Both the position numbers and the translations under genes were made by a program. Under the pieces are notes generated by a model. The model saw nothing but the letters and a program-made list of their open reading frames with translations, was not told where the DNA came from and did no database searches. From Desulfobacterales bacterium (GTDB taxonomy: Bacteria > Desulfobacterota > Desulfobacteria > Desulfobacterales > JAUYIZ01), in assembly GCA_030688615.1 (NCBI GenBank), contig JAUYIZ010000424.1, positions 1-32,535 of the forward strand: DNA of 32,535 nt. Reading direction: 5' to 3'. Below, one piece after another: positions 28,486-32,443 of the stretch; within the stretch, counting starts at the first letter, position 1, and every line of letters begins with the position of its first letter.

Positions 28486-28705
28486 TACCTGAAGTATGAT
28501 TTTCCCTTCCGGACCAGCCGGTTACTTCCACTGATCCGTCTATCGGCTCAAAATAAAGGTTTATCCGGTTGATGCGTACTTCTTCCTGTAATATTGTTTT
28601 TCTCAATTTTTTGCTCAATGTAACATTTCGTTTGGTAATAACAAAAAACCGTAGAACTCTAACCTAAAATGTGGTACTATAAGTATAACGGGTGAAGTTC
28701 ACTAA

Positions 28706-28734
28706 TTGACAAGTTGATCTAATGCGACTATTCT
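28706..28734 (+). promoter_or_regulatory. Sigma70-type promoter for the protease-PIN cassette
   Basis: TTGACA-N17-TATTCT; implies a leader of about 140 nt before 28881. Confidence 0.5.
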
Positions 28735-28880
28735 CCAAATGTCTGATATGAGAAAGAATAATGTCTGGGAAAAACAACAATAGTAATTAATGCCTTACGG
28801 CTTTGCTAATGTTATTTTTTGGTCAATTGAGACGACGGTTGAATTGGATTAACTGCACCTAACGTTTCGAGGTTTTCAAA

Positions 28881-29933
28881 ATGCCTAAAAAATACCAAGC
28901 GACGCGACAGAGTAAGACTTCGCCTTCCACAGAAGTTCAAGGAATGGCGACGCATCGGCAGATTGATCCCAATATATTGGTTGCCCTGTTGGATTTAGGT
29001 CCAGCAAGGTCACTGATTGAGTCCATCGAGCAAAAGCGCCAAGGATCAAGACTGTTTTGTATTGTTTACAATGATAGAGGCCCTTTACATTTAACGACAA
29101 TGTTGACGCCATCAGCACTAAAACCGTTGGAAGCAATTCTGTCCAGGGTAGGCAAAATGTCCAGCTTAGATGTATTCTTAAGGTCTACTGGTGGAATCAC
29201 GGAGGTGCCTTGGCGTATAGTGACCCTACTGAGAGAGTTTTCGGACAGATTAGGCATAATTGTCCCAAGCATAGCTCTAAGCGGCGCTACTCACATTGCT
29301 ATTGCAGGGGACGAGCTTATAATGACACCGTTCTCTGTACTTGGATCGGTTGATCCAACTAGAAATCATCCGCTCCTTCCAAAGGATGCGGTAGGCAAGC
29401 CAATCCCAACATCTGTTGAAGATTTGAAACATTGCATCAAGTTCATTCGTGAGCAATTGGGAGAGTCTGAAAAACAAAATTTGGCTCTGATAATTTCAGA
29501 GCTGTTTAAGTATATCAACCCTTTGGCCATAGGTGCGTTGGAGCAATCCTATAATCTGTCAAAGTTAATAACTAAGAAGTGCTTAACTACTCGAAAAGAG
29601 CCGCTTACCGATGAGAAGATAAATGGGATCGTTGACCAGCTGGCAGGCGGTTATTTTTCCCATTCGTTTCTGATTTCGAGAGCCGAAGTCGAGAAGGATC
29701 TTGACTTGCCTGTGACAAGACCGGATGCCGAACTCACCGAATTGATCTCAAGGCTTGAGAATCATTATGTTGAACGGTTTGAAAAAGAAATGCAACCACT
29801 TCCGGCACCGAATAGCAAACTTTTTGTTCGTTTAGGCGGTGTTATACAAGTAGCTGACAACGGATGGGCAATAGCTCAAATCATTAAACAAGATGGTCAA
29901 CTGGTCAGTGATTCGTGGATACCTTTCAGTTAG
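28881..29933 (+). CDS. ClpP/SDH_sah-type (serine dehydrogenase proteinase-like) serine protease, no obvious TM segment
   Basis: DVFLRSTGGITEVPWRIVTLLREF..IIVPSIALSGATHIAIAGDELIMTPFSVLGSVDP matches the ClpP-class SDH proteinase layout with a serine in the SGxT position. Confidence 0.75.
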   Translation: MPKKYQATRQSKTSPSTEVQGMATHRQIDPNILVALLDLGPARSLIESIEQKRQGSRLFCIVYNDRGPLHLTTMLTPSALKPLEAILSRVGKMSSLDVFLRSTGGITEVPWRIVTLLREFSDRLGIIVPSIALSGATHIAIAGDELIMTPFSVLGSVDPTRNHPLLPKDAVGKPIPTSVEDLKHCIKFIREQLGESEKQNLALIISELFKYINPLAIGALEQSYNLSKLITKKCLTTRKEPLTDEKINGIVDQLAGGYFSHSFLISRAEVEKDLDLPVTRPDAELTELISRLENHYVERFEKEMQPLPAPNSKLFVRLGGVIQVADNGWAIAQIIKQDGQLVSDSWIPFS

Positions 29934-29944
29934 GAGGCAGGATA

Positions 29945-30154
29945 ATGACGAAATACGAAAATGCCATTGAATTTTCTCAAATAGAGAGTGAAAATTATAC
30001 GCATGTTATTTTTGAAACACTCCAATTAGGATTTCCTGGAGGGGCCTCACCATGGGACATAGTAGTGCGGGAGCGTCCAACTGAGCCTTTGATAGAGCGA
30101 AGTCCGGAGGAGATAGAGAAATTACGGGAACATCCGCTGTTTGCCGGAAGTTAA
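29945..30154 (+). CDS. Small acidic protein of unknown function, coupled to the protease gene
   Basis: 69 aa; ATG at 29945 with AGGAGG overlapping the upstream TAG stop. Confidence 0.65.
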   Translation: MTKYENAIEFSQIESENYTHVIFETLQLGFPGGASPWDIVVRERPTEPLIERSPEEIEKLREHPLFAGS

Positions 30155-30184
30155 CCAATTAAAAAGTCTCCGACAGCACTATCG

Positions 30185-30706
30185 ATGGAAGAAAGAATGG
30201 AGCGAAGGCTTTCGCCAGACAGAGGGCACAAGTTGTTTGTTGATACCAGTGCCTTCGTAGCGTTATTTGACAACGCAGATCAATACCACAAGCAAGCCGT
30301 GACATTCAGAGATACGTTCATTCTTCGTTACAAGCTTCGGCTTCTGACAAGCAATTACATTTATTCTGAAGCCATGTCTCGTCTCACGCACTTACCCATT
30401 AAAGTGTTGCAACAACTCGATGCGCTTATTCGCAATCCGCCGCTCGCTGGGGCTCCCATCGAGATAGAACAGCTTTGGGTTAAGAAAGATACTGTTGTCA
30501 AGGCAGTTCCCATATATTTTCGGTATATTGAGCAACGCTTTAGCATTACTGACTGTACAAGCCTTATCTTGATGGAGAAACACGACATTCGCGCAGCCTT
30601 CACGTTTGATGACCACTTCAAGATATACACTTACAATAAAGGGTATGGTGTTAAGGCAGGGTTCTGGAAACTACCTGAAATGCAGGATTCATATATGTCA
30701 ACTTGA
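30185..30706 (+). CDS. PIN-domain nuclease (VapC-like)
   Basis: LFVDTSAFVALFD, conserved SEAM acidic residue, FSITDCTSLILMEK, FTFDDHF: the PIN acidic quartet order. Confidence 0.85.
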   Translation: MEERMERRLSPDRGHKLFVDTSAFVALFDNADQYHKQAVTFRDTFILRYKLRLLTSNYIYSEAMSRLTHLPIKVLQQLDALIRNPPLAGAPIEIEQLWVKKDTVVKAVPIYFRYIEQRFSITDCTSLILMEKHDIRAAFTFDDHFKIYTYNKGYGVKAGFWKLPEMQDSYMST

Positions 30707-30746
30707 AGTAATACCCAATTCTACCGGACACTTATCAAAGTTGAAT

Positions 30747-31247
30747 ATGTCAAGAGATGAAAAGCAAACCCGTGTTGAGCTTATTGACCCTAAGATTTAT
30801 GACTGTGGATGGCACGAGGCGCTCATCCGTGAGGAAAAAACACCGGGGGGCGCCGATATCATCGACGGCCGGCCAAGAAAAAGAAAAGGCCGGACGGACT
30901 ACCTTCTTTGCATTCCGGTGATGGAAGGAAAACCGCCCTTGGCGGTTGCAGTCCTTGAGGCAAAAGCAGAAAACAAGCTACCGTCACTGGGTATTCAACA
31001 GGCTAAGGACTATAAGCAGAAATTTAATGTCCCGTTTGTGTTTTCAACCAATGGGCATCTTTACACGGAATACGCCGATGACACCGGAGAGATTAAGGAT
31101 GCCCTTCCCTCGGCGCAGGCCAGGATGACGGTTATCTGGCGGCCTGTGAAATCGTTCGCCGAACTGTGGATCTGGATAAAAAAGAGATTACCCGGAACGA
31201 TATTGTTCAGCGATCCGCTATTGACCCCTATACGGGCAAAAAGGTAA
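30747..31247 (+). pseudogene. hsdR: Type I restriction HsdR, 5' fragment (nuclease domain)
   Basis: HsdR N-terminus with PD-(D/E)xK signature TDYLLCIPVMEGKPPLAVAVLEAKAEN; HsdR homology ends near 31110 and the rest of the ORF is out-of-frame translation. Confidence 0.75.
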
Positions 31248-32443
31248 AACCCGAGGAAATCGAAGATCAATACACGGCCAGGGAGTATGAAATCAAACTC
31301 ATGCTGGACGACCGGGTAAAGGCCATGAGTGAAGACTTGTTTCAGCTAATGCTGAAAACCGGCGGGCCCCATCAAAAAACCATCATCTTCTGCGCCCGGG
31401 ATTCCCACGCCAACCAGATCATGATCGCCATGAACAACATCTATGAGAAATGGTGCCGGGAAAACCAGCGCACCCCGCGAGATTGGTACGCCTTTCAGTG
31501 CACGGGCAACCCGGACCTGCGTCCTTCCGCCGATAAGCTGATTCCGGATTTCAAGGGGTCTAAAAACGCCTATTTTATCGCCACTACCGTGGACCTGCTA
31601 TCCACCGGTGTGGATATCCCCAACCTGGACAATGTGGTTTTTTTCCGCTACCTGGAATCCCCCATCAGCTTTTACCAGATGGTCGGCCGGGGAACGCGCA
31701 CCGGCGAACCCCGGGGTTCGAAGGCCATGTTTCGCCTGTATGATTACACGAATACCACCCGTTTATTTGGAGAGGAATTCATCAGCAGGCCCGCCCCATC
31801 CAATCCCGACGAAGAAGCCGAAGGCGTTGAAAGCCCGGAAGGGGACTATGGAGAAAAACGACCCAAAAGGAAAATCATCCGGGTCAGTGAAGATCAATTT
31901 GTGGTACAGATCGAAGGGGAGGGCCGTTCCATCCTCTGTGAAGAAGACGGCAAGGAGGTCCTTGTGCCGGTGGAGGAATATAAACAACGGCTGGCCGACA
32001 AATTGGTCGATGCAGTACCTTCTGTAGACAAATTGCGTGAGACCTGGATCACGCCTGATCTGCGCAAAAGGCTGCTGTTAAACCTGCCCGGAGGCGAAGG
32101 CTCTGTGCGCTTAATCCGGGAACTGGATGATGCCCGGGAATGCGATCTATATGACATCCTGTCTGAATTGGGCTACGGTCTGGTCCCCAAATCCCGCAAA
32201 GAACGTGCCGCTGCCTTTTCATATAAAAATAAGGGTTGGCTGCGGGATTTTCCCGAAAGGACCGGCAAGGTGTTAAATGCAATCGCCCGGCAGTTTGAAA
32301 AAGGAGGCATAGAAGAGCTCGAAACCACGAACCTGTTTGATGAGTCGGAGGTCGTTGCAAGCGGCGGGTTTGATGCGCTGATAGGGCAGGTGATTGAACC
32401 TCAATTGTTGATTCAGGAAACGAAAGCGAGATTGTTGGCGTGA
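31115..32443 (+). pseudogene. hsdR: Type I restriction HsdR, 3' fragment (helicase motor 2 and C-terminal domain) in a different frame
   Basis: DDGYLAACEIVRRTVDLDKKEITRNDIVQRSAIDPYTGKKV..., KTIIFCARDSHANQI, STGVDIPNLDNVVFFR, MVGRGTRTGEP. First usable start in the ORF track is GTG 31166. Confidence 0.8.

Follow-up and report, generated by a model that had tools for sequence, protein, structure and literature searches.

A mobile-looking gene trio pairs an SDH-type ClpP-fold protease with a candidate toxin-antitoxin pair whose relatives carry chimeric antitoxins

How an antitoxin is removed to free its toxin has long been disputed, and the housekeeping proteases Lon and Clp are usually invoked. 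The triggers of toxin-antitoxin (TA) systems are, to our knowledge, mostly unknown. In TAC systems, SecB-like chaperones hold and protect an antitoxin that has an extra, toxin-independent segment, and in CBASS and retron systems effectors are swapped. CmdTAC illustrates how a third partner can act on an antitoxin: on infection, its chaperone senses the phage capsid and dissociates, after which the antitoxin is degraded (PMC11618068). A protease neighboring a TA pair is known from Microcystis aeruginosa PCC 7806, where the gene of the orthocaspase MaOC1 adjoins a ParDE/RelE-like pair; MaOC1 cleaves the antitoxin of this pair, so that the toxin is no longer blocked, and co-expression stops growth (PMC7935541).

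Here, we describe a locus in a window of 32,535 nt (i.e., the whole stretch of DNA that was analyzed, from a Desulfobacterales bacterium), in which an SDH-type protease gene is followed by a small gene and a PIN-domain gene. A scan of GTDB species genomes yielded one close relative, a contig of the Syntrophaceae MAG CG2_30_49_12 (L002), whose genome belongs to the same phylum as the window genome and to another class. The relevant features are as follows.

28580-30745, + strand: candidate mobile cassette, as delimited by its similarity to L002 (blastn, edge alignments)
28706-28734, + strand: promoter-like TTGACA-17-TATTCT ~150 nt ahead of gene 1, within the conserved leader (putative)
28881-29933, + strand: gene 1, SDH-type ClpP-fold serine protease, 350 aa, soluble (PF01972)
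29932-29937, + strand: AGGAGG ribosome-binding site of gene 2 (from the sequence; identical in L002)
29945-30154 (ATG at 29945), + strand: gene 2, acidic 69-aa small protein, proposed antitoxin (by position; no family)
30185-30706, + strand: gene 3, PIN-domain ribonuclease, 173 aa, proposed toxin (PF01850)
30747-31247, + strand: hsdR N-terminal remnant, outside the cassette (NCBIfam restrict_EcoAI positions 3-112)
31166-32443, + strand: hsdR C-terminal remnant in another frame, outside the cassette (NCBIfam restrict_EcoAI positions 371-742)

Like the MaOC1 locus, for which antitoxin cleavage has been demonstrated, this locus and its relatives place a protease gene ahead of a presumed TA pair. 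However, MaOC1 is a cysteine caspase-like protease and adjoins another TA family, whereas here the protease is of the ClpP-fold serine type, the toxins come from several families and chimeric antitoxins occur. In toxin family (PIN/VapC, PemK/MazF) and, at three related loci (L039, L141 and L120), in the C-terminal tail of the antitoxin, there is agreement with VapBC, MazEF and HEPN-type type II pairs; in contrast to these pairs, a protease gene is added and the standard N-terminal domain of the antitoxin, DNA-binding or other, is replaced. Three genes and a third partner that is proposed to act on the antitoxin are shared with TAC systems such as CmdTAC (PMC11618068), but the extra partner here has a protease fold and not that of a SecB-like or other chaperone, as judged by its Pfam profile. 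PADLOC, NCBIfam and the open-licence PMC literature yielded no account of a TA system with an SDH protease, and none of the three proteins matched a catalogued defence family (PADLOC 2.0.0). The toxin families, the antitoxin tails and the protease family are each known, but none of the sources searched describes them in combination, nor the replaced antitoxin domain or the swapping.

The original prediction had described three co-directional, tightly packed genes, and its coordinates and product sizes (350, 69 and 173 aa, all on the + strand) proved right. The AGGAGG of gene 2 indeed overlaps the TAG stop codon of gene 1 (29931-29933), and no terminator-like site was found between the trio genes on the + strand. 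In order and spacing, the candidate toxin gene is preceded by a small, tightly linked gene, as is typical of type II TA layouts. The window and L002 share 91.7% nucleotide identity over 2175 columns in blastn, with ends at 28580 and 30745, so that the shared stretch comprises a leader of ~300 nt, the three genes and 39 nt past the last stop codon. The products of genes 1, 2 and 3 are 87%, 96% and 91% identical between the two loci, with dN/dS values of 0.32, 0.21 and 0.27, respectively, indicating purifying selection on all three genes. The trio is thus more than a chance arrangement, as it recurs over 2.17 kb in L002 and all of its genes are constrained. Its flanks are unrelated: the window has an hsdR remnant and an MFS gene, and L002 has fragments of type IIG restriction-modification (R-M) genes, an HKD-Snf2-like gene and, as judged by eye, a Phd/RelE-like pair. 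The best explanation for this pattern appears to be that the cassette moves horizontally as one unit. As both sequences probably stem from MAGs, a binning error may have contributed, but the contexts differ and each lies on a single contig. The promoter-like site in the leader matches the consensus at 10/12 positions; the scan returned 7 such sites in total against 4.9 expected, which is not significant.

Gene 1 matches the SDH protease family (PF01972) with 45.6 bits over residues 93-160 (cut-off 31.3). Its score against the SDH family Clp fold serine proteinase equivalog (NF047768) is 53.6 bits and falls below the cut-off of 250; as judged by this profile, gene 1 is a relative of NF047768 and not that equivalog. 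It shares with SDH family Clp-fold serine proteinases (PF01972, NF047768) the fold family and the position of the serine, and differs from NF047768 proteins in a longer C-terminal region, an invariant tryptophan and the linkage to a small gene. Ser134 aligns with the serine of PH1510-N (ASAGT), and the SGxT context that had been read from the sequence is there, as SGAT. Gene 1 is therefore assigned to the ClpP-fold serine proteases on the strength of a predicted catalytic serine at the conserved position. Within the protease clade to which gene 1 belongs (see below), the predicted active site is conserved among aligned members at S134 (26/26), H261 (27/27) and D158 (26/27), and the clade-specific C-terminal W346 is invariant (27/27). 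An obvious membrane anchor had been reported missing, in line with the hydropathy profile, whose highest 19-residue mean (1.77) lies at residue 124 within the fold. An AlphaFold2 model of gene 1, computed with the sequences of the window, L002 and four prophages, reached a pLDDT of 35 and was set aside.

Gene 3 matches the PIN domain (PF01850) with 30.9 bits (cut-off 23.6), and all four acidic residues of the PIN active site are in place (D20, E62, D123 and D142/143); by profile and active-site residues, its product is a predicted PIN-domain toxin. Gene 3 has many free-standing relatives in the phylum, and most of the examples read are preceded by an antitoxin with a DNA-binding-type N-terminal domain (RHH, Phd-like or AbrB-like) and the tail HDRYLYG.

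A survey of ~1100 genomes of one phylum, together with plasmids, placed gene 1 in a distinct and patchily spread protease clade of 27 loci. In three classes the clade occurs in about 8/155, 5/148 and 4/63 genomes, a sparse distribution as expected for mobile genes. Using profiles built from free-standing relatives of the toxin queries, we found a PIN, VapC or MazF protein directly behind the protease at 7 of 22 non-redundant clade loci versus 0 of 56 other SDH-family loci (Fisher p = 6e-5); each of the 22 loci had at least 900 nt of downstream sequence, the window and L002 were counted once, and the clade was chosen partly because toxins had been noticed there, with membership set by the protease profile alone. 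At the positive loci, the toxin gene starts 220-350 nt after the protease stop codon with one small gene in between. A PIN protein stands behind the protease in the window, L002, L116, L046 and L143, a tRNA(fMet)-VapC type protein in L039 and L141, and a PemK/MazF protein in L037 and L120. Further loci carry a HEPN-like protein (L140, below cut-off), a retropepsin-like protein (L127) or unclassified proteins of 103 aa (L036, L122) and 196 aa (L117). Sister proteases carry different effectors: in the protease tree, L037 (MazF), L140 (HEPN-like) and L127 (retropepsin-like) group together in a clade supported at 100/99, while the second MazF locus, L120, falls into a different supported clade. 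As read from tree and gene order, this shows effectors being swapped behind the same protease clade.

Two of these arrangements are worth describing in their own right. At L127 (3910-4798), the protease is followed by a DUF5678-containing small protein and the retropepsin-like aspartic protease, which places two different proteases in one candidate operon. The proteases of L036 (2377-2989) and L122 (4045-4698) are followed by two unclassified genes with products of ~104 and 103 aa. Members of the 103-aa family are also encoded on Rhizobium plasmids, there behind a DUF3072 gene, which makes this a candidate unnamed toxin-antitoxin family.

The small gene between protease and toxin is the candidate antitoxin gene. 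Gene 2 of the window matched no family in Pfam, NCBIfam or PADLOC, and its tail matched none of the antitoxins of free-standing relatives of the window PIN protein, which bears out the earlier remark that it is not a recognizable VapB-type antitoxin. As no antitoxin tail is detectable, its antitoxin role is argued from its position and from other members of the family: gene 2 occupies the same place as the small proteins of L039, L141 and L120, which do show sequence homology to antitoxins. For this comparison, free-standing homologs of the L039 VapC and the L120 MazF were collected and the gene preceding each was read. Profile searches matched the small proteins of L141 (E = 3e-9) and L039 (E = 2e-6) to VapC antitoxins and that of L120 (E = 1.5e-7) to MazF antitoxins, in each case at the C-terminal tail only, with a best E of 0.09 among shuffled controls. 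The antitoxin of the nearest free-standing VapC (L189) consists of a Phd domain and the tail GLLSAIGAWEDFENLEEMVAMIYERRGRAKER, and its SDH-linked counterpart reads GLLAAIGAWEDYDGIDEFVEDIYRKREKAFDR after an unrelated N-terminus of 57 residues. Likewise, the DUF2281-like antitoxins of free-standing MazF proteins end in SLSKDWLKPEEDEAWQNL and the SDH-linked one (L120) in VLGKDWDTPEEDEAWANL after ~100 unrelated residues; the overlap of antitoxin stop and toxin start is common to SDH-linked and free-standing MazF pairs. In Pfam scans, most free-standing antitoxins contained Phd, MazE (MazE/AbrB), RHH, DUF2281 or AF2212-like domains, and none of the SDH-linked small proteins scanned did; the latter are thus not VapB proteins with an AbrB, RHH or Phd DNA-binding N-terminal domain. 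By sequence, the small protein that accompanies VapC or MazF is a chimeric antitoxin that has kept a toxin-binding-type tail and had its N-terminal domain replaced.

We found no common N-terminal motif among the small proteins, as an EM search did not outperform shuffled sequences at width 9 and, at width 7, gave a marginal result with incoherent sites. A YFTGE-like N-terminal similarity among the small proteins of L116, L141, L039 and L051, whose tails are unrelated, was not significant in the motif search and was dropped. Tail queries against plasmids returned nothing useful. Since no common motif was found, recognition by the protease may rest on disorder or structure.

Some clade members have no toxin behind the protease. 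Among the loci with sufficient downstream sequence, about ten show no recognized effector there, and most of these keep the small gene; in the related loci L034, L035 and L126, the protease is accompanied by a conserved gene of 77-91 aa (IGLPIMPEGFVIDTGFL) with no toxin behind it. The protease may therefore have another core role. In a different reading, it would be a safety device that degrades the toxin or clears the TA complexes, with the small protein as adaptor or inhibitor of the protease; conservation of the small protein at the three toxin-less loci suggests that its primary partner may be the protease. A mere protease adaptor, however, would have no need of the toxin-specific antitoxin tail in which the VapC and MazF versions end, and we regard this role as quite improbable.

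The trio had been placed next to a type I restriction locus and likened to defence genes in general. Its adjacency to such a locus stands, but the locus is not intact: what follows the trio is a broken hsdR (30747-32443), the middle of which (~model positions 113-370) is missing, and the remaining parts, the N-terminal domain and the C-terminal helicase portion, lie in different frames. Defence genes are frequent neighbors of the clade, with R-M genes beside six loci (the window, L002, the type IIG system of L032, the type III systems of L040 and L117 and the type I system of L116), but this is not specific to the trio, as other SDH-family loci also lie amid defence genes. The neighbors of L041, L129 and other distant SDH loci include Dsr1, HmaA/HmaB-like and HsdS-like genes. 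Enrichment of defence neighbors was accordingly dropped as a trio-specific argument, and a tblastn comparison was without power. Life in defence islands thus characterizes the SDH family as a whole and not the trio in particular, and the wider family may be worth a defence survey.

Against this background, ordinary TA pairs might simply have been dropped behind an unrelated protease, given that defence islands are rich in TA pairs and that both the six R-M-flanked clade loci and the other SDH loci have such surroundings. Coincidence of this kind sits poorly with the 56 other SDH loci, none of which has such a toxin in that position, with small genes that overlap or abut the protease gene, with antitoxins without their usual N-terminal domains, and with an arrangement that stays constant while the toxin families vary. 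We disfavor it and consider it very unlikely.

The original prediction had proposed a toxin switch. Recurrence of protease, small gene and toxin as a unit, with PIN, VapC and MazF toxins, agrees with this proposal in part, and in two toxin classes the small protein has a homologous antitoxin tail. We lean slightly towards the trio being a type II TA variant in which a dedicated protease, working without an ATPase, removes the antitoxin. In this model, gene 3 would be an RNase toxin and gene 2 its antitoxin, devoid of the usual DNA-binding domain and presumed to neutralize the PIN protein. On a trigger, gene 1, as an ATPase-independent ClpP-fold protease, would cleave or degrade gene 2, whose N-terminal segment may be the part seen by the protease, and the freed toxin would stop growth, plausibly as abortive defence. 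Removal of the antitoxin is the most likely task of the protease because its active-site residues are conserved, its partner antitoxin is stripped of the autoregulatory domain and MaOC1 provides a precedent.

The main rivals to antitoxin removal are the protective role considered above and a chaperone-like one. In the latter, the SDH protein would bind and protect the antitoxin until an infection signal removes the SDH protein and housekeeping proteases clear the antitoxin. The extra toxin-independent segment of the SDH-linked antitoxins would fit such a role, as would the departure of the CmdTAC chaperone on infection (PMC11618068), but a non-catalytic protein needs neither the predicted Ser134 nor His261, both fully conserved among aligned members; we therefore rate a chaperone-like role as unlikely.

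Returning to removal of the antitoxin by the protease, the chimeric antitoxins would borrow their C-terminal half from the toxin family in use, and toxin modules would therefore be swappable behind one sensor-protease, as effectors are in CBASS and retron systems. Whether one protease clade and chimeric antitoxins, with a protease-responsive N-terminal and a toxin-family C-terminal half, make up a general class of 'protease-gated' TA systems seems to us evenly poised. If so, a self-encoded, antitoxin-directed protease and the matching antitoxin domain swap would make the removal step testable with two or three plasmids, effector swapping would align the system with modular immune systems, and a role would be added to the almost none described for the SDH protease family in the literature found.

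Two further settings of the clade were observed. Searches for the clade in phages gave no match, and the copies on viral contigs were all of the E. coli prophage type. One clade member is encoded by lambdoid E. coli prophages, where it lies between the genes for holin and antiterminator Q and in the opposite orientation (L050, 7986-8981; L225, 3001-3996); it is named SDH family Clp-fold serine proteinase in RefSeq, occurs in 47 of 5426 complete genomes, overlaps an unannotated 59-aa ORF and resembles accessory genes that are expressed from a prophage. On a Chlorohelix plasmid (L051, 5842-12077), the clade protease is followed by a 76-aa gene, a gene for a 1326-aa protein with PD-(D/E)XK and AAA helicase parts and a 255-aa gene; the 1326-aa protein gave partial DpdJ-like and MkoA-like matches.
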